In this document: positions 35,956 to 53,639 of the stretch, one piece after another
Layout of the letters: every line of letters begins with the position of its first letter
Position numbering within the stretch: position 1 is the stretch's first letter
Assembly (NCBI GenBank): GCA_019914995.1
Contig: CM034138.1
Location: 4,588,001-4,652,000, forward strand
Source: Acanthochlamys bracteata
Taxonomy: Eukaryota; Streptophyta; Magnoliopsida; Pandanales; Velloziaceae
DNA length: 64,000 nt
Direction of reading: 5' to 3'
Notes under the pieces: generated by a model
What the model was told of the DNA's origin: nothing
The model's input: only the letters and a program-made list of their open reading frames with translations
Database searches by the model: none
Translations under genes and position numbers: made by a program

Positions 35956-35990
<35 letters not shown>

Positions 35991-36347
35991 ATGGGGAGGG
36001 ATAAGAGCACTCCCTCCTTAAGGGTACTCCCGAGCACTCCCTCTCCGATTTATGGCCAGGGTGACTTCCGAATCCAATCTCCACTGTTGGATATGAAGAA
36101 CTATGAGTTAAAAATCTACCCATAAAATTTCAGCTCAATCGGACCACGAATTCATCTCCATCCGATCATTTGATCAAGATGACAAAATATAAGAAAATTT
36201 AAAAATATATATGTTGTATCATTTCTGTCATCTTGATCAAGAGATCAGATGGAGGTAAACTCATAGTTATTCATATCCAACGGTGGAGATTGGATTTGGA
36301 AGTCATCCCGGTCATAAACCGAAAAGGAAGTGCCCTTAACCCTCCCC

Positions 36348-36382
<35 letters not shown>
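35956..36382. repeat. (TA)n microsatellite split by an insertion
   Basis: A pure TA run at about 35956-35987 and another at about 36352-36382 flank the palindromic element. This is consistent with one tract having been opened by insertion or duplicated as its target. Confidence 0.85.
35992..36348. mobile_element. Palindromic TA-microsatellite-targeting MITE
   Basis: About 357 bp that fold on themselves: the left arm (GGGGAGGGATAAGAGCACTC, then CCAATCTCCACTGTTGGATA and TCAGCTCAATCGGACCACGA) recurs inverted on the right (CAGATGGAGGTAAA, TATCCAACGGTGGAGATTGG, CCTCCCCA). The loop is AATATATATGTTGTATC. It lies between (TA)n tracts, as do its relatives at 43.3-52.5 kb. No coding capacity. Long arms with a TA-tract target fit MULE-derived elements such as MuTAnT; Micron elements of rice share the target. 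Confidence 0.85.
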
Positions 36383-36384
<2 letters not shown>

Positions 36385-42483: not shown

Positions 42484-43039
42484 TAGGGGTGACAATATGG
42501 GTTCATGGGTCGGTTTGGGTCGACCCATATAATAATCGGATAAAAAATATTCAACCCTAACCCGACCCGTTTATTTATATGGGTCAAAATTGTCAATCCT
42601 AACCCAACCTATTTATAACCGGGTCAAATTCGGGTCGACCCATTTAATAATTAAATTATTAAATAAAAATTATAAATATTAATTTTTAATAATAATATAT
42701 CAAAATTATTAATTATGATGTATTTAAAAAGGAAAAATATTAATTTGACAAATTTATAAATTAAATAAAAATTAGTTAAAATTAAGATAAATTAAAAAAA
42801 TATATATACAAATTAAATTCAAATTTTTTGCTATTTGTTTCTAATTTTTAAGTAATATATACTATATAAATAGTTAAACGGGTCATTTTTGGGTCGACCC
42901 GAACTCGTTTAAAAATTTCGGGTCATTTTCGGGTCGATCGGAAATCGACCCAAACCCGTCTAAGACTTGATCCGAACCCGACCTTTTCAGGTCGGTTTCG
43001 GATCGGGTTTTCGGGTCCGGTTCATTTTTGCCACCCCTA
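42484..43039. mobile_element. hAT-like non-autonomous element, best-preserved copy
   Basis: It begins TAGGGGTGACAAT and ends ...TTTTTGCCACCCCTA, an inverted pair. The flanks ACTAAATC (42476-42483) and ACTAAATG (43040-43047) match at 7 of 8 bases, the hAT duplication size. Inside are repeated GGGTCGACCC / GGGTCGATC words near both ends and an AT-rich middle. 556 bp, non-coding. Confidence 0.85.
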
Positions 43040-43047
43040 ACTAAATG

Positions 43048-43306
43048 AGATCAGATTTTACCAAATTGTGAATCGTTCCATACCGACTTTGTCCGTAGAA
43101 GAAAATATATGATAAGAATTAGATACAACACAGAACAATTAATTCCTTTTCATGAAGTTATTATATTATTTGGATTTTCTATTTTCATATTACACAACCA
43201 GACATATCCACTAACGTCACAATCTGATGGATGTTTATAAATGCTTATACTAGGCGGCACTCGACTATATGCTATTCACATGGACATATGCATTTCAAGG
43301 GCCATA
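43048..43306. other. Left flank of the TA island
   Basis: The last bases before the TA tract, CATTTCAAGGGCCATAAT, are repeated inverted directly after the island (52500-52516). Otherwise unremarkable. Confidence 0.5.
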
Positions 43307-43328
43307 ATATATATATATATATATATAT

Positions 43329-43722
43329 GGAGAGGGATAGAGGCACTCCCTCTTTGGTTTATGGCCGGAGTGACATGTAAATCCAATCTCCACCGTTAGA
43401 TATAAAGAATTATAAATTAGAAACTTACCCATAAAATTTCAGCTCAATCGGACACGAATTCACCTACTCCGATCATTTGATATAGATGATAGAAAGTAAG
43501 AAAACTTAAAAAAATATATATTGTATCATTTCTGTCATCTTGATTAAGTGATCAGATGGAAGTAAATTCGTCGTCCGATTGAGTTGAAATTTTATGGGTA
43601 GGTTTCTAACTCATAGTTCTTCATATCCTATTGCGGAGATTAGATTTGGAAGTCACTCCGGCCATAAACCGAGGAGGGAGTGTCCGAAAATGCCCTTAAG
43701 CAGGAAGTGCCCCTATCCCTCC
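43329..43722. mobile_element. Palindromic TA-targeting MITE, copy 1 of the island
   Basis: It begins GGAGAGGGATAGAGGCACTC and ends GTGCCCCTATCCCTCC. The left arm AATCCAATCTCCACCGTTAG recurs inverted on the right. Loop AATATATATTGTATC. It is close in sequence to the copy at 35992. Confidence 0.9.
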
Positions 43723-43744
43723 ATATATATATATATATATATAT

Positions 43745-44150
43745 GCGGAGGGATAGGGGCATTCCCGCACACTACCTCTCCGGGTTGTGCTTGGGGTGAC
43801 CTCCAAATCCAATATTCACCGTTGAATATGAAGAACTATGAGTTAGAAACCTACTCATAAAATTTCAGCTCAATCGGACAACAATTCACCTCAATCCGAT
43901 CACTTGATTAATATGACAGAAAGTAAGAAAATTTAAAAATATATGTTATATCATTTTTGTCATCTTGATCAAGTTATCAGATGGAGGTAAATTCGTGATC
44001 CGATTGACCTGAAATTTTATGGGTATATTTCTAACTCATAATTCTTCATATACAACGGTGGAGATTAGATTTGGAGATCACTCCGGCCATAAACTTGTGA
44101 GAGAGTGCCCGAAAGTGCATATAAGGAGGGAGTGCATCTATCATTCCCCA
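43745..44150. mobile_element. Palindromic TA-targeting MITE, copy 2
   Basis: It begins GCGGAGGGATAGGGGCATTC and ends with ATCTATCATTCCCCA. The arms contain TCCAATATTCACCGTTGAAT and TCAGCTCAATCGGACAACAA and their inverted counterparts. Flanked by (TA)n on both sides. Confidence 0.9.
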
Positions 44151-44169
44151 TATATATATATATATATAT

Positions 44170-44575
44170 GAGGGATAAAGTCACTTTCTTTTCTACGGGC
44201 ACTCCATATTAGGTTTATTGCCTGAGTGAACTTTAAATCAAATCTTCATCGTTGGATATGAAAAACTATGAGTTAGAAATATCATTACAAAATTTTAGCT
44301 TAGTTGGATAATTAATTCATCTCTATCCGGTCACTTGATCAACATGATAGAAAGAAAGAAATTTTAAAAGTATATATAGTGTATCATTTCTGTCATTTTG
44401 ATCAAGTGGCCGGATTGAGGTTGATTTGTAGTCTGATTGAGATTAAAATTTTTTAAAGAGATTTCTAACTCATTCTTGCTCATATCCAATGATAGAGATT
44501 TGGAGGTCATATCAGCTACAAACCGAGAAATGAATGTCCGAAAATGCCTCTAAAAAGAGAGTGCCCCTATCCCAA
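44170..44575. mobile_element. Palindromic TA-targeting MITE, copy 3 (more diverged)
   Basis: It begins GAGGGATAAAGTCACTTTC and ends GAGAGTGCCCCTATCCC. The inner words AATCTTCATCGTTGGATATG and TTTTAGCTTAGTTGGATA are diverged versions of those in copies 1 and 2, so this is probably an older insertion. Confidence 0.85.
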
Positions 44576-44602
44576 ATATATATATATATATATATATATA
44601 TA

Positions 44603-44680
44603 GATTAGGAAGTCATCTCGGCTACAATCGAAAAATAAATGTCTGAAAGTGCCCCTAAGAAGAAAATGCCCTTATCCCAT
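44603..44680. mobile_element. Truncated palindromic MITE (right end only)
   Basis: About 78 bp matching the last part of copy 3 (TAGGAAGTCATCTCGGCTACA, split here by small changes, then AGTGCCCCTAAGAAG and CTTATCCCAT). It lies between (TA)n and a (TAAA)n run, so the left part was lost, perhaps by slippage between TA tracts. Confidence 0.75.
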
Positions 44681-44692
44681 AAATAAATAAAT

Positions 44693-44726
<34 letters not shown>

Positions 44727-44729
<3 letters not shown>

Positions 44730-46615
44730 AGGAGATGCGCGCACATCCCCTCCCCCGCGCACATCGCGTGTGAGCCGTCCGATCAGCTATCGGACGGTTC
44801 ACGCGAGCGCGCTCGCGCGTAAAGAGAAACATCTTACGGGAGGGCATTTTCGTCAACTCATATTCGATTTGGTCTGCCTCCTCACGCGAGCGTGTTTTCA
44901 TTCACCATTTCTTCCTTTCTCTTCTTCGCAGCGAGCTCGCCCGCTGCCTCCCGCTCGGTGATTTCGCGTTGCCGCCAAGCCTTCTTCTTGCCGTAGGTGA
45001 GATTCTTTCTCCTCTCTTCTCCTTCGTCTAATCCCTCTTAAAATTTCCCCTTTCGTTTCCAACTCTAGAATTTCGTTCGTCGGGCCGGAGCTTTCGTTTT
45101 TTTCGCCGGCTGACGATTGAATCTAGGGCTAGGGAACCTTACATTCGTCTTCTCCTCCTTCTTCTATACAGTTTAGAGCTTTCAGTTTCTGCATTCCCGC
45201 CGCTAGTCCTAATTTGTTCGTCAGGCCGGACCGTTCGCTCGCCGGCCGACGATCGGAATTAGGCTTAGCGGACATTTAATTCTTCTTATTCTCCTTCTTT
45301 TATGCCTTCTACAATCTTTAATTTCAGCATTTGTTGTTGTTTGTCGGCCGTCGACCAGAGCGTTTGAACGTCTGCCGGTGGTCGAACTTCACGTAACATT
45401 TTAAAGATATCTTTGTTGCAGCATCGTGATTTTAAGTTCTAAACTTTTTAAAATTTTTTTAACAATTTGAATAGGATTTTTTTTAGTGTGAAGCTTGTTG
45501 CTGGAGGCTTGCTGAGAGCTCGCTGGTGATCGGTGAGCATGAACGCGAATGGTACTCATATTTGTTTCTCACTCTTTTCTTTTCTTTTGATTGCAGAATA
45601 AATGCCGATCCTTGTGACTGATGTGAATTTGGAAGACAATGGTGCTAGTATTGTTGTACTTTACTGGGATGGCTCTGGAGCTCACTTCTAATGGTTTCTT
45701 GTGTCTTTGGTTTTTTTTTTTTTTTTCGTTTTTCATGAATGTCGGCAGTGAATGAATGTTTGTTAAGTGTAGTGTGTCTACTGCTGTAATGCAGACTATG
45801 ATGTTTTGTGTCTGCTGTGTCTAAGTGTTGTAAACTTGTGATTGTAATTCAAGGTTGTAGCTTTTGTTGTGAATGCAATGTAAAATTTTTTTACAAACTT
45901 GTGTTATGAATGAAATGCGATGATAATTCTCTGGTTGGTATCCATTGTGTTGTCATATGTGAATGTTAATGTGAATGTGAAGTGAATGAGAATGATGAAT
46001 GTGATGAGAATGTAATGAGAATGAGAATGTGAATGTTGTCGATGCTTAAATGTGATGTATAAGAACAGCAGTGAGCTCACTGAATGAATGTGGAGCGTGT
46101 ATAGACTAGTGAGCTATGTTCTGGCAGATGAATGCTTGCCAGTGGCAGATGCATATCTCACTGGCAAGGGAATACATGACCTATGCTCATGGCTTGAAGT
46201 GGACACAAGAGCTCATTGGCAGCAGCTCACTGGTCTCCGGCGAGTGAGCTCACCGGACTCCCTCCAACCAAAATAAATTTTAATTTTAACTTTTTTTAGT
46301 CGGAGTTGTACGATGTCGTTTAAATAGATCGAACGTAACAATTTTTTTTTTTTTTTACAATGCAACTTAACAAAATCTTTTTTTTTTTGTTTTGTGTTGA
46401 GCTATGCAAGCTCACCGGACTCCCTCCAGTGAGCTCATCGGACTCCGGCCAAAATTCAGTCAAAAAATTTTTTTTTTCTAAAAACAACAGTGAGCAATAT
46501 AAGCTTGAACAAATTGAACATAGCAAATTGTGTTGTTTTTTTTTTTATAATAATGCAACTTAAGTAATTTCACTGGCCTCCTTCCAGTGAGCTCCAGAGC
46601 TCACTGCAGTTCCAA
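44727..46615. repeat. Left terminal inverted repeat of the MULE
   Basis: Collinear with the inverted right arm through CTCTAGAATTTCGTTCGTCG, GACGATCGGAATTAGGCTTA, a (GAATGT)-rich stretch (45960-46035), GGCAGATGAATGCTTGCCAG and GTACGATGTCGTTTAAATAG. It carries an extra copy of about 18 bp near the tip (CCCCTCCCCCGCGCACATC) that the right arm lacks. No host protein is encoded; the GC-rich outer 600 bp look like a promoter and leader. Confidence 0.88.
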
Positions 46616-46641
46616 AAAATGGCAAAAATACATTCATCATC

Positions 46642-49166
46642 CTACTCTAGTCGAATAGCTAAGTCTTCATCTTCAGTATCTTCATCTTCACTTGTATTTT
46701 TGTCTTCAGAATCATCTCTATGAGTAACTAGCAAGTACAAACGTGATGATAAATATCAAAATCTTAATAAAAAATTTTACTCTTTAGGAATTAAAACTAA
46801 GCAAATGAGTAAACTTACTTGTCTTATTCTTTCTATTAGGATTATCAGAACAATTTCATTTATCATGTTTGACACCCGATTTGTTACAGTACGCACATCT
46901 TCGACCAGCCTTCGCCTTGGTTCTTGCAATGGCTTTCTCCAAACCTTCTTTTATTCTAGTGTTACCCTTGCAAGTCTTTCCTTCTTTATTTCTTCCCTTT
47001 GTTTGTGATATGTCGGGATTTAAAAGCAACACTTGGGAGGCATCAATTGAGCCTTGTAAATTCTCATTGTGCATGACTGAAATCTTATCATGATCAATAG
47101 TCTTCCTTACTTCCTTGAGCCGCACTGTTGTTTCTTCCAATGTTTGCAACAAGATTTTGTATCTTTCATCGGTTTTAGCAGCTTCATAAACTATTTGGTT
47201 GAACACCTTTTGAAGTTGGATAGTTCTCAATAGCTTAGCATTGTCATGGCCACTTACTGAACCTCCATCATACTTACCTCTGTATTTATTGGCACCTTTT
47301 CTCCATCGATGCAAAATAAAATGATCGGGTATTTCTATATCCCGACTCTGAAAGACCTTCACAAGATGTCCACAAGGAATCCCCATAAACTCAAAAAGTT
47401 TGCATTCACAGCTACCTTTTTTTGTGGCTGGATTAAACTTCACCTTCCACTCCCGTCGATCATCTTCAATTCGAGACTTATAAATATAAGTCGTGTATCC
47501 ATCACTACCATTTTCATCATCATGCAAGATATACTGAGACTGAGCTTTTTCATATTCCTGTTTGAACTTATTGTACACATTTCTCGTATATAATTTTGCT
47601 GCACTTTTTAAGATATCAGAGTTGCCTTCTACAATGCGACATAAGTGTTCAGACACATAATCCTCTTTTTTTTTCTTTCTCAATAATTTTACTCAAATAT
47701 TTTTCATTCTTCAACACAAACTCTCGAAGAGTTGTTGTAGGATGAAAAAAATTCTTGTAAATTCCATTCATACCTTCGGAATGCCCAGTAGTGTTAATGC
47801 CGGCATAAAAAGTATTCAAATGATAGACAGGTGCCCACTGTTGTCGAATCTCATAGATTGCTAAGAGCCATTCATTTTTCTGCAACTCATATGTACACAT
47901 CAATTCCTCCCACCTCATTTCAAATGTGCTAGGATTAAAAATTTCCCGAATACACGACTTCATATCTTTTTTGAATTTTGACTTCTTGAAATAAATATGC
48001 GAAAGCTTTTCGGCAAATTTTTCATAATGTGCCATAAACAAAATCTATGTCGTGTATGTGGGAATACCTTAGCAATTGCTGCAGTCATAGCTCTATCTTG
48101 ATCTGTGATTATTGAAGATGGAGCACGTGCCCCCATAGCTGCAAGCCATGTCTCAAAAAGCCACCAAAAAATTTTTTCAATCTCACCAAAAAGTAGTGCC
48201 CAGCCAAACTGAATTGACATATTGTGATGGTTAACTCCAGTAAATGGAGCAAATAGAATCTCATAGACATTCTTGCGGTAGGTGGTGTCAAAAAATACAA
48301 CGTCACCAAAATAATGATATTGACTACGTGACCTCCCATCCACCCAGAAAAATTTAATTGCTCTTGAGTCTTCATCCATTTGTATCGCATAAAAAAAGTT
48401 TGAATCTTCTATACTGTTCCTCTTGAAAAAGTTAAGCGCTGCGGTTGCATCACCACTGATAGGCTTTTTGTATTCCTTTGAGCGACACAAATGGTTTCAA
48501 CAATCTCTGTTATCAAAACCATATTGAGGTCCGTCAAGTATATCAGCAACTTTAGCCATAGGTATACCTTCATCCCGAAATGAATCAATCAAACTCTTAG
48601 CTGCAGCGGGCATATTTCTGCAAACAGACATACGCATTCTTTTTGCTGGGCTAACTAGATTGTGATTGTGTTGGCTTTCATAATTGACCACTTCCCACAA
48701 TCCACTAGGTTGCTTTCTCACCCTCATTGTTGCAAGACACCCACATTTGGCCGTGCTCGTGCTTCTCTTGTTCTGTACTGATTTTTCAAGTTCCTCGTCC
48801 ATTTTTTGAGGTCGATGTCTTCTATAATTTCCAAAACGGTTACAAGTCATTTGACAAATAGTGACTTCATCTGAATGAGCACGGGTCTTTTGTGTAGATC
48901 GAGTCACTGCGCTAAACCCCTTGGCTTTTCCATAGTTTATATAAAATTGCTTCGCATCTTCCAGACTTACAAATATCATCCCTAAGTACGGTGACTTGAG
49001 ATTGTCATTTACTACGTTTGGAGTTGGTACAGAAGAAGATCCGGCCTCGAAACCTACAAATTTTTAAAGAAAATAACATAAGATAATAAAATTCAAATAC
49101 AGATGTTATTGAATGGAAGAGAATTGCCAAAAAGTTTTATATAATACCGTTGAACTGGTTAGACAT
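46642..49166 (-). CDS. MULE transposase, FAR1/FHY3-like (near-intact)
   Basis: Exons on the minus strand: 49166-49148 (MSNQFN), 49053-46819 and 46715-46642, with canonical junctions and matching phases; about 775 codons. Order of domains: FAR1 zinc DNA-binding domain (about 49000-48600: EDAKQFYINYGKAKGFS, KCGCLATMRV, SQHNHNL); MULE catalytic core with the DDE triad (VVFFDTTYRKN, SSIITDQDRAM, TTGHSEGMNGIYK) and CLWHIMKN; SWIM finger (CECKLFEFMGIPCGHLVKV, about 47420-47350); zinc knuckle CAYCNKSGVKH near 46870; and an acidic last exon (SEDKNTSEDEDTEDEDLAIR). This copy has two in-frame TGA codons, at 48491-48496 and about 46853-46855, both plausible CGA-to-TGA changes, and two compensating frameshifts near 48019 and in a homopolymer near 47670. 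It would cut and insert the element at (TA)n. Confidence 0.9.
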
Positions 49167-49439
49167 AGTGTAGGAGTTTAGATATAGGAGGAAGAATAAA
49201 AACAAAAAGAATAATCCAGTTTTTTTCTTGCTTGTTGCTGAAATAGAACACCTAAGAACAGAGAGCAAAACAACAGAACAGAGAGCCTTCTCTATTCCCG
49301 CTTTATCAGCTCTCTCCCGCTCAAAACAGATGCACCTAAATGGGTAATGACAAAAATGACCTCTGCAAGCTTGTTATAAAATTTTTCTGTGCTTGGTGTT
49401 GTTGTGTGCTCAATTTTTTTTCTTCTTCAAATATAAACA

Positions 49440-51613
49440 TGTGTACAACGGCAGAGAATCAAGTGACCAGTGAGCTCACTGACCAGGAACGAGGGAGCTC
49501 ACTGGACAGTGAGCTATGCAAAACAGTGAGCTTTGCTAGCTCAACACAAAAAAAAAAAAATTTTGTTAAGTTGCATTGTAAAAAAAAAAAAAATTTCTTA
49601 CGTTCGATCTATTTAAACGACATCGTACAATTCCGACTAAAAAAAAATTAAAATTAAAATTTATTTTGGTTGGAGGGAGTCCGGTGAGCTCTGCTAAGCT
49701 CTGGAGCTCACTGGACAGTGAGCTTTGCTAGCTCAAAAAAAAAAAAAAAAAAAAGATTTTCTTAAGTTGCATTGTAAAAAAAAATAACTTTGTTATGTTC
49801 GATCGATTTAAACAACATCGTACAACTCCGACTAAAAAAAATTAAAATCAAAATTTATTTTGGTTGGAGGGAGTCCGGTGAGCTCACTCGCCGGAGACCA
49901 GTGAGCTCACTGGCCGGAAACGAGTGAGCTCTGCTAAGCTATGGAGCTCACTGGACAGTGAGCTTGCATAGCTCAACAAAAAAAAAAAAAAAAAAATTTT
50001 CTTAAGTTGCATTGTAAAAAAAAAAAACTTTGTTACGTTCGATCTATTTAAACGACATCGTACAACTCCGACTAAAAAAAAATTAAAATTAAAATTTATT
50101 GTGGTTGGAGGGAGTCCGGTGAGCTCACTCGCCGGAGACCAGTGAGCTCTTGTGTCCACTGCAAGCCATGAGCATAGGTCATGTATTCCCTTGCCAGTGA
50201 GATATGCATCTGCCACTGGCAAGCATTCATCTGCCAGAACATAGCTCACTGGTCGAGACACACTCCACATTCATCCAGTGAGCTCACTACTGTTCTTATA
50301 CAGTACATTTAAGCATCGACAACATTCTCATTCTCATTACATTCTCATCACATTCATCATTCTCATTCACTTCACATTCACATTAACATTCACACATGAC
50401 AACACAATGGATACCAACCAGAGAATTATCATCGCATTTCATTCATAACACAATTTTGTAAAAAAATTTTACATTGCATTCACAACAAAAGCTACAACCT
50501 TGAATTACAATCACAAGTTTACAACAGTTGGACACAGCAGACACAAAACATCATAGTCTGCATTACAGCAATAGACACACTACATTTAACAAACATTCAT
50601 TCACTGCTGACATTCATGAAAAACGAAAAAAAAAAAAAAAAACCAAAGACACAAGAAACCATTAGCAGTGAGCTCCAGAGCCATCCCAGTAAAGTACAAC
50701 AATACTAGCACCATTGTCTTCCAAGTTCACATCAGTCACAAGGATCGGCATTTATTCTGCAATCAAAAGAAAAAAAAAGAGTGAGAAACAAATATGAGTA
50801 CCATTCGCATTCATACCTGCTCACCGATCACCAGCGAGCTCTCCGGCAAGCCTCTAGCAATACGCTTCACACTAAAAAAAATCCTGTTCAAATTGTTAAT
50901 GAAATTTTAAAAAGTTTAGACTGAAAATCACGATGCTGCAACAAAGATATCTTTAAAATGTTACGTGAAGTTCGACCACCGGCAGGCGTTCAAACGCTCT
51001 GGTCGACGGCCGACAAATAGCAACGAATGCTGAAATTGAAGATTGTAGAAGGCATAAAAGAAGGAGAATAAGAAGAATTAAATGTCCGCTAAGCCTAATT
51101 CCGATCGTCGGCCGGCGAGCGAACGGTCCGGCCCGACGAACAAATTAGGACTAGCGGCAGGAATGCAGAAACTGAAAGCTCTAAACTGTATAGAAGAAGG
51201 AGGAGAAGACAAATGTAAGGTTCCCTAGCCCTAGATTCGATCGTCAGCCGGCGAAAAAAACGAAAGCTCCGGCCCGACGAACGAAATTTTAGAGTTGGAA
51301 GCGAAAGGGGAAATTTTGAAAGGGATTAGACGAAGGAGAAGGGAGGAGAAAGAATCTCACCTGTGGCGAAGAACAAGGCTCGGCGGCAGCGCGAAATCGC
51401 CGAGCGGGAGGCAGCGGGCGAGCTCGCTGCGAAGAAGAGAAAGGAAGAAATGGTGAATGAAAACGCGCTCGCGTGAGGAGGCAGACCAAATCGAATGTGA
51501 GTTGACGAAAATGTCCTCCTGTAAAACGTTTCTCTTTACGCGCGAGCGCGCTCGCGTGAACCGTCCGATAGCTGATCGGACGGCTCACACGCGATGTGCG
51601 CGCATCTCCTCCC
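49440..51613. repeat. Right terminal inverted repeat of the MULE, with internal tandem units
   Basis: The inverse of 44727-46615. The inner part is expanded into three tandem units containing AAGTTGCATTGTAAAA (at about 49568, 49765 and 50005, spaced 196 and 240 bp), each with TTAAACGACATCGTACAA-type and GAGTCCGGTGAGCTC segments. The left arm has about two such units. Confidence 0.88.
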
Positions 51614-51640
51614 ATATATATATATATATATATATATATA

Positions 51641-52035
51641 GTAGGGTGGGGATAGGGGCACCCCACCCTTAAGGGCACCTTAGGCACCCTTTTTTAAAAA
51701 GATGCGTAAAAAATTTCAAATATAATCTCCACCGTTGGATATGAAAAACTATGAGTTATAAAGACGGCGACAAAAGTTTAGCTCAATCGAATCATGAATT
51801 GATGTCCATCAAATCTCTTAATCAAAATGAGATAAAAAAGAAAAAGAACATCTTTATCAAAACTTATTATTTATATCATTTGATCAAATGCCTGATGGAG
51901 ATTGATTTGTATTCCGATTGAGTTGAAATTTTGTCAATATATTTTTTACTAGTAGTTCTTCATATCTAACGGTAGAAATTGAATTTGAAATGTTAGATTG
52001 AAAAGGGTGCCCCTAAAAATGGGATGCTCCTATCC

Positions 52036-52037
<2 letters not shown>
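51641..52037. mobile_element. Palindromic TA-targeting MITE, copy 4 (distinct subfamily)
   Basis: It begins GTAGGGTGGGGATAGGGGCA and ends GATGCTCCTATCCCCA. The inner words ATAATCTCCACCGTTGGATA and TTTAGCTCAATCGAATCATG are shared with copies 1-3, but its tips (CACCCCACCCTTAAGGGCAC) differ. Flanked by (TA)n. Confidence 0.88.
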
Positions 52038-52070
<33 letters not shown>

Positions 52071-52072
<2 letters not shown>

Positions 52073-52478
52073 AATAGGATATAGGCACATGCGTACACAT
52101 GCTGGCCAAAAGTGGCCGGCGAGCTCTCCAAATCTAATTTTCACCGTTGGATATGAAGACCATGTGTTGGGAACATGTTGATAAAATTTCAGCTCAATCG
52201 GAATACGAACCGACCTCCATCGGAACTCTTGATCAAAATGACGTATACTTTTAAATTTGACAAAAGATATATATTTTCTTTTTGTGTCACTTTGATCAAG
52301 AGTTCCGATGGAGGTCGGTTCGTATTCCGATTGAGCTGAAATTTTATCAAAATGTTTCCAACTCATGGTTCTTCATATCCAACGGTGGAGATTGAATTTG
52401 GAGAGATCGTCGGCCACGTTTGGTCAGCATGTGTACACATGTACTTTTAAGACCTACATGTGCCTATATCTTATCCCA
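52071..52478. mobile_element. Palindromic TA-targeting MITE, copy 5 (ACATGTG-tip subfamily)
   Basis: It begins GGAATAGGATATAGGCACAT and ends ACATGTGCCTATATCTTATCCC. Its arms are the cleanest in the window: TTCAGCTCAATCGGAATACG and ACCGACCTCCATCGGAACTC recur inverted as GAGTTCCGATGGAGGTCGGT and CGTATTCCGATTGAGCTGAA. Tips hold CACATGCGTACACATGC. It is probably the youngest of the palindromes. Confidence 0.9.
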
Positions 52479-52499
52479 TATATATATATATATATATAT

Positions 52500-53639
52500 T
52501 ATAGCCCTTGAAATGATTGTATGGATATGTGTTGGCATACATAAAGATGCATGTGACCGTGTGTGTGTGTCTACATAAGCAAGTATATTATATATATCAC
52601 ACACGCATAGCGTAGGTGATGGATTGAGAGCATATCTTGAACTCGTATCATATTGTTATATATATCACACACGCATACATTATAATATGTACATATATCA
52701 GGGTGATTAGCAAAGCTCGATGCTTAGTATGTGCTGCAATCTGCGTCAATCTATATGATCATAGCTCTATGCTGAATACGTTATGGGATCCTCAGATATT
52801 CAATACCTTCGTAGCTCGATGTCCGGTATGTCTGAGCACCCACCGGAAATTCATATATTTTAGTGCCTTATATATTTTAGGATCCACTAGACTAATTAGC
52901 ATCTCTGGGACCCACGTCATGAATATCTCATATAAGTATTTATAATATATAATAGGTTAGGGTAATATTTATCAAATCCTGAGTCGTCCCATACGAATCA
53001 AATCTTTAACAAGTAGGTGAAATGAAATAGATTTTTCACACAACGAGTATACTATGCCCAATATCTCAATGTCATTATAATCATACTCATACATGTTTGA
53101 AATATACGTACTAATATGTATGTCAAACATGTCCTATAATCATGCCACTAGGTTTATATAATACTAGGGTGCTATTATAATTGCTATCCTAATGTTATGT
53201 AAGCATGCATTGTGCAAGCATCATGAAGCATGAAGGATTAATCACCCAAATGCACAAAAAAGTGATAATGTATGCTAAAATTTTCAAAACAAATGTTATT
53301 TGTACCAGAAGTCTAACTATATTGCTAAGAGAAAAAAGACAAGTTAACCCTCATCTGAGATCAATGCAATCATCTAAATTCACAAGCTATCATCAAGCGA
53401 AGTTGCCGACTCTAAACTCTAATTTCAATCCTGACACATAATTAAGTGCAATTAAAGCATAAATAAATAATATTACGCCCGTTCATAATTCCTAACGTAC
53501 GACTAGAATCATATCTAACCTAAACCATCTCTAGTGTAATCAAATTCAAGATTCCCAAACATTAACCAATCAATGATTAACATAATTCCATAAGCCATAA
53601 AATTTAGTTGGTGATTGCATTGATCTAGATAGCTTACCG
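52500..53639. other. Right flank of the TA island and intergenic DNA
   Basis: Begins with the inverse of the left flank (ATAGCCCTTGAAATG). A short (GT)n run lies at 52558-52571, and ATATATCACACACGCATA occurs twice (about 52593 and 52659). No gene seen. Confidence 0.5.

Follow-up and report, generated by a model that had tools for sequence, protein, structure and literature searches.

The 64,000-nucleotide stretch of Acanthochlamys bracteata analysed here (the window; contig CM034138.1, positions 4,588,001 to 4,652,000) contains, at window positions 43307-52499, an island in which eight pure (TA)n tracts alternate with five palindromic miniature inverted-repeat transposable elements (MITEs, termed E1 to E5), one MITE remnant and a Mutator-like element (MULE) of 6,887 bp. 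The island very probably records at least six separate transpositions, namely those of E1, E2, E3, the MULE, E4 and E5, by elements of a Mutator-like lineage into TA at one point of a host repeat. A preliminary description of this DNA had proposed repeated independent insertion that leaves TA on both sides, and the proposal is borne out by related elements across the genome: 94 of 130 near-full copies carry TA on both sides, and among 43 linked pairs with both members near-full, the neighbour is in no case the best match of either member.

The layout itself was confirmed with two corrections, and the eight pure TA tracts sum to 204 bp. That no other DNA lies between the parts holds overall, except that the remnant ends in ~16 bp of degenerate (TAAA)n rather than MITE sequence. 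Six independent insertions are well supported, whereas a seventh is not.

TA flanks and stacking across the genome

The genome searched comprises 195.5 Mb in 557 contigs, the window included. Three queries were used: E1 plus the start of E2 yielded 1452 candidates, E4 1567 and E5 1480, 40 of each being scored. The resulting 68 matched loci merged into 62 regions (213,985 bp), a sample biased to close relatives of the window elements. These regions hold 168 element matches, of which 131 span at least 60% of the query; one at an edge was dropped, leaving the 130 near-full copies. A TA flank was defined as a pure tract of at least 8 bp within 25 bp of the projected element end. The preliminary description had suggested counting how often such elements are flanked by (TA)n on both sides, a state found in most of the near-full copies of this sample; it had also held that copies lacking TA flanks would speak against the proposal, and such copies amount to six with no flanking TA and 30 with TA on one side only. 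Altogether, a TA tract is present at one or both ends in 124 of the 130 copies. As a control, 12,400 points were placed at random in these regions outside the elements, and 233 of them have a tract end within 25 bp; this control tests a single point and an element has two ends, so that the chance per element is about twice that of the control. In the whole genome, the tip GGGATAGGGGCAC was found behind at least 14 bp of TA in 61 reverse-strand and 202 forward-strand matches, the latter figure counting single tracts several times, compared to none in the control.

More than half of the matches (98 of 168) are TA-linked to at least one other, and their islands comprise 30 pairs, 6 triples and 5 quadruples, the other 70 matches being single; at least one linked pair is present in 34 of the 62 regions. 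These counts are minima, since the flanks extended only 1.5 kb per match. The 57 linked pairs join different tip families in 37 cases and the same tip family in 20. Among the 43 pairs with both members near-full, 42 could be aligned, with neighbour identities of 67.5-89.0%, and in 30 of the 43 one or both members match a copy from another sampled place at 90% or more. The key result is that the neighbour is never the best match: the stacks grew by separate arrivals. A strict tip-to-tip junction, CCTATCCC-N10-40-GGGATAGG, occurs at 29 genome sites, compared to one for the reversed control, and ATATAT, as read by eye, lies inside the linker of 26 of them. A scan for nesting gave one candidate, on contig C8, which was judged to consist of palindrome cross-matches. 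As a separate observation, the MITE tip-to-tip junction at C6:2026516-2026555 has a 14-bp non-microsatellite linker, ATATTACCCAATAT, possibly after loss of TA.

The alternative that the array was built by tandem or segmental duplication, or by unequal exchange between TA tracts, is highly improbable. It would account for the fact that E1, E2 and E3 belong to one family and follow each other in direct orientation at a 425-bp period, and also for the 20 linked pairs with a shared tip family and for the remnant, whose best match is its neighbour E3. Yet E1 and E2 find their best matches on contig C6 and E3 on contig C9, and both the complete lack of best-match neighbours among the 43 near-full pairs and the predominance of pairs joining different tip families argue against duplication. 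For the six elements, the remnant being left aside, the neighbour test led us to reject tandem duplication.

Palindromes and Mutator-like elements of the islands

The features of the island and of its flanks are collected in Table 1.

Table 1. Features of the island and its host flanks, in window coordinates.
Feature	Position	Strand	Description
Left host flank	43137..43306	+	repeat X, ~34-bp deletion compared to other copies
(TA)n tract 1	43307..43328		22 bp
MITE E1	43329..43722		palindromic, tip family 1; self-inverted match 78% over 342 bp
(TA)n tract 2	43723..43744		22 bp; junction also matches the tip-to-tip pattern CCTATCCC-N10-40-GGGATAGG
MITE E2	43745..44149		palindromic, tip family 1; 82% to E1 over 375 bp
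(TA)n tract 3	44150..44169		20 bp
MITE E3	44170..44575		palindromic, tip family 1; 75% to E1, 74% to E2
(TA)n tract 4	44576..44602		27 bp
MITE remnant	44603..44695		93 bp, between tracts 4 and 5
(TA)n tract 5	44696..44726		31 bp
MULE	44727..51613	-	6,887 bp; tip GGGAGGAGATGCGCGCACATC
Transposase piece	46856..47692	-	SWIM zinc finger (PF04434)
Open stretch	47649..48044	-	between MULE and SWIM pieces, different frame; only a sub-threshold domain match
Transposase piece	47960..48496	-	MULE domain (PF10551)
Transposase piece	48497..49063	-	FAR1 DNA-binding domain (PF03101), terminates at in-frame stop
(TA)n tract 6	51614..51640		27 bp
MITE E4	51641..52037		palindromic, tip family 2
(TA)n tract 7	52038..52070		33 bp
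MITE E5	52071..52477		palindromic, tip family 3; self-inverted match 84.5% over 368 bp
(TA)n tract 8	52478..52499		22 bp
Right host flank	52500..52560	-	~60 bp, inverted duplicate of X from left of the site

All five palindromic units match their own inverse, at 68-84.5% over 266-368 bp. E1, E2 and E3 form a single family with pairwise identities of 74-82%, and a core of ~270 bp is common to E4, E5 and E1-E3, with 71-77% identity in the better orientation. The several palindrome families of the preliminary description thus hold for the tips, of which there are three sets, but in view of the shared core the five palindromes belong to a single lineage with three tip families. Among the sampled copies, the 3' end of E3 is the closest match to the first 77 bp of the remnant (81%). 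As this best match is the adjacent element, the remnant is perhaps no insertion of its own and may instead be a local duplication of the end of E3. A solo MITE of the E1 family lies 7 kb from the island (window 35988-36351), flanked on either side by 32 bp of pure TA (35956-36383).

The terminal inverted repeats of the window MULE match at 94% over 1.69 kb, and a domain search of its transposase detected PF10551 (4.3e-29), PF03101 (6.3e-16) and PF04434 (2.5e-06). To judge from its sequence, the element is a member of the Mutator superfamily, both the MULE transposase domain and the long terminal inverted repeats being present, and it is a defective copy; the 8-11-bp target-site duplication typical of the superfamily is invisible inside (TA)n. 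An in-frame stop and two changes of frame interrupt its transposase, and because the frame is split in this way, the autonomous element assumed in the preliminary description is not supported.

At least 151 matches to the MULE domain of the window are present in the genome (759 candidates, 150 of them scored), some in long stop-free frames, such as those of 831 residues at C3:3028750 and 811 residues at C20:4054782. Among 16 MULE ends read by eye, a TA run lies no more than ~8 bp from the tip in 14, the exceptions being L071 and L079; a 17th stretch (L085), fetched at a presumed end that was a guess, shows no tip. In three of the 16 (L069, L077 and L084), a MITE end lies beyond the TA. A listed MITE lies within 5 kb of eight of the 150 listed MULE domains, the window included, compared to means of 0.97 under circular shifts and 1.68 under local jitter, and none of 500 trials of either control reached eight. 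There is no enrichment within 3 kb (1 of 150 against a chance mean of 0.49); it starts at 5 kb, where the element ends lie. Nine stretches beside MITEs near MULE domains were read by eye, and five (L096, L097, L098, L099 and L101) show a MULE-type end, TA and a MITE in succession, the other four (L100, L102, L103 and L104) being without a MULE end; in L103, transposase coding sequence runs directly into TA. Such joins, again read by eye, recur on contigs C5, C6, C7, C11 and C14. The preliminary description had considered a MULE among palindromes unusual, a view that does not survive: MULE-TA-MITE islands recur in this genome, and one report describes defective autonomous MULEs in arrays of rice and MULEs in TA of guayule (PMC5907723).

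An island on contig C7 (about 7466551-7481560), of which only the element ends were read, comprises two successive MULEs followed by E1-type MITEs. The two MULEs are separated by a TA-rich spacer of ~330 bp, interrupted by TACA and TACG. In the second MULE, the two ends resemble each other, ~70 bp of each being read, and the MULE domain is 71% identical to that of the window MULE. Its right tip agrees with that of E1 at 18 of 20 positions (0 of 1000 shuffles as good) and its left tip more weakly (score 7; 1 of 1000). When the palindromes are compared with the tip of the window MULE, E5 is the most alike (0 of 1000 shuffles as good), followed by E4 (6 of 1000); as many pairs were compared, with tip strings selected by eye, all these shuffle counts are a rough guide. 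The presence of E1-type tips around a related transposase domain links the E1 family with the MULE lineage.

Elsewhere in the window, we noted a retroelement polyprotein remnant with an integrase core domain (PF00665; 8077-9234) and an open frame with a ZF-HD dimerisation region (PF04770; 27447-28841), the latter a possible anchor for synteny of the island. Together with the FAR1-type domain, the ZF-HD region points to a plant.

The host repeat and the possible growth of the TA tracts

The island is surrounded by a dispersed repeat, here termed X, for which a query from the right flank found at least 59 matches (40 of 187 candidates scored). The inverted X copy on the right retains the ~34 bp missing from the left flank, and direct X sequence resumes past 52560. 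This inverted duplication possibly arose by template switching at a TA tract or a palindrome. Ten X copies were fetched around the site, nine of which are comparable on the left, the remaining one (L093) not being homologous there; in L090 and L095, the likeness is confined to the last ~20 bp left of the site. In seven of these nine empty paralogues, pure TA of 8-19 bp lies at the position of the island start or no more than a few bases away (8 bp in L087; 9 bp in L089, L090, L091, L092 and L095; 19 bp in L094). The preliminary description had expected an empty site to be a plain (TA)n between a host flank and its inverted partner. The first part finds its counterpart in these seven TA runs, but the inverted partner is present in none of the ten fetched copies and represents a local inverted duplication of host DNA. 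The inverted flank was rejected as a general signature of such islands, with two of 48 islands or solo elements above the 99% null; the score of the window (27) is below its 99% null (51), owing to the deletion in the left copy. Also beside the island, window 42484-43039 is occupied by a high-copy dispersed repeat that ends in CACCCCTA, with at least 39 other copies of 88-92% identity (2126 candidates).

We propose that a TA-rich point inside the dispersed host repeat served as the target for elements of a Mutator-like lineage. Each insertion would duplicate a few TA units as its target site and leave TA on either side, from which the next element could enter alongside without breaking its neighbours. 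The MITEs would be non-autonomous relatives of TA-targeting MULEs, presumably moved in trans by a transposase that the window MULE can no longer supply; E4 and E5 would have the same mover as the rest, and the TA tracts would be kept or lengthened by slippage. Insertion into TA with duplication of TA as the target would account for the whole pattern.

Several observations weigh against this proposal. On at least one side, 36 of the 130 near-full copies have no TA tract of 8 bp, and in the six copies without any adjacent TA, a target-site duplication is not clearly visible by eye; in the TA-flanked copies it is unreadable, as a duplicated TA is invisible within (TA)n. Two of the nine empty paralogues (L086 and L088) have only 4 bp of TA, and the empty sites are paralogues rather than the allele of this locus itself. 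Moreover, the tip of E1 bears only a weak likeness to that of the window MULE (22 of 1000 shuffles as good), and no mover of E4 or E5 was recognised. A different route to such arrays, in which circular element intermediates that carry microsatellite filler enter a genomic microsatellite by homologous recombination, would also yield non-nested stacks, in line with the single candidate of the nesting scan. This route, termed speculative in its source (PMC5907723), is not needed here; the flanks, where present, are mostly TA and fit target-site duplication in TA. We regard it as improbable.

Insertion into TA may be refined by supposing that the target is a few TA units only and that the long tracts expanded during or after insertion, which is plausible and, in our estimate, falls just short of probable. 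The pure TA of the empty paralogues, 8-19 bp in seven and 4 bp in two, is short compared to the 204 bp of the island. Tracts bounded by two elements (median 17.5 bp, n=56) show no shortening relative to tracts with an element on one side only (median 16 bp, n=137; p=0.15), as would be expected if split tracts regrow, although linkage was scored for tracts of at least 8 bp, which favours long inner tracts. These one-sided tracts in turn exceed in length the TA tracts that lie apart from elements (median 9 bp, n=49, p=5e-6). By contrast, one empty paralogue already has 19 bp. In addition, tract length is uncorrelated with how closely a copy matches its counterpart in the window (E4, n=27, p=0.15; E5, n=41, p=0.75), and left and right tract lengths are likewise uncorrelated (n=94, p=0.45). 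The idea that TA length tracks age was rejected for lack of correlation with identity. An expansion of this kind is reported for maize TAFT elements, whose empty sites have short TA that is longer once an insertion is present (PMC5907723).

With 204 bp of TA here and 4-19 bp in the paralogues, the landing pad may have grown about tenfold while it was filled. Six insertions with a duplication of 9-10 bp each would add ~60 bp, and the remainder would stem from growth by slippage or repair. A bolder proposal, which we consider possible rather than probable, is that the transposons make their landing pad: a proto-microsatellite of ~8-20 bp in the host repeat would have been enlarged about tenfold by successive insertions, through duplicated TA together with repair or slippage. 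If so, each insertion would raise the odds of the next, a self-amplifying target that a comparison of filled with empty repeat copies could reveal within a single genome. The paralogous empty sites bear on whether long TA tracts precede insertion as its target or result from it.

Relation to known microsatellite-linked arrays

The island is a further case of a described kind of array and not a new kind, since mixed stacks of MULEs and MITEs are already published as SaTar arrays (PMC5907723) and adjacent MITEs as clustered Ac-mMITEs (PMC8449440). The present genome adds a plant with the whole cast, that is, three MITE tip families, at least 151 MULE domain matches and mixed islands. As TA-targeting MULEs and MITEs stack without being broken, microsatellites serve as safe harbours for modular genome growth.

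SaTar elements are described from guayule, rice, sorghum and citrus, in non-nested arrays joined by microsatellites, often of TA (PMC5907723). In guayule, ~30% of the elements are linked and MULEs occur in TA; in rice, defective autonomous MULEs share the flanking microsatellite with other SaTars, six of 12 copies of ArS-MULE1 are linked to rSaTar2 (= Micron), and unoccupied TA sites were seen between subspecies. Outside microsatellites, a target-site duplication of ~10 bp is given for 11 of 15 guayule families (PMC5907723). By description, the system studied here resembles the SaTar, AgS-MULE and ArS-MULE elements in its mixed small elements with terminal inverted repeats, which form microsatellite-joined non-nested arrays with defective MULEs included; further likenesses are the similarity of the terminal inverted repeats to those of MULEs and the deletions inside clusters (PMC5907723). 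The features of this type found here are small elements with terminal inverted repeats, microsatellite flanks, linked non-nested arrays of mixed families and, in the E1 family, MULE-like tips. It differs in that all five palindromes share one core, that empty paralogues of the host repeat carry short TA runs and that target-site duplications of 9-10 bp, as described for SaTars (PMC5907723), were not found.

The Ac-mMITE-1/2 elements of pineapple are similar in their preference for (TA)n, their clustering, with 46.1% of full-length copies clustered by adjacent insertion, and their inferred Mutator-like nature (PMC8449440). No autonomous relative is reported from pineapple (PMC8449440), whereas MULEs lie in the same islands here. 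MuTAnT and AutoMuTAnT of Medicago likewise combine foldback elements and TA-repeat flanks with a longer relative encoding a mudrA-like transposase (PMC4486113). Micron of rice and TAFT of maize, as described, share with the present elements the targeting of TA microsatellites (PMC5907723, PMC4486113, PMC12550479).

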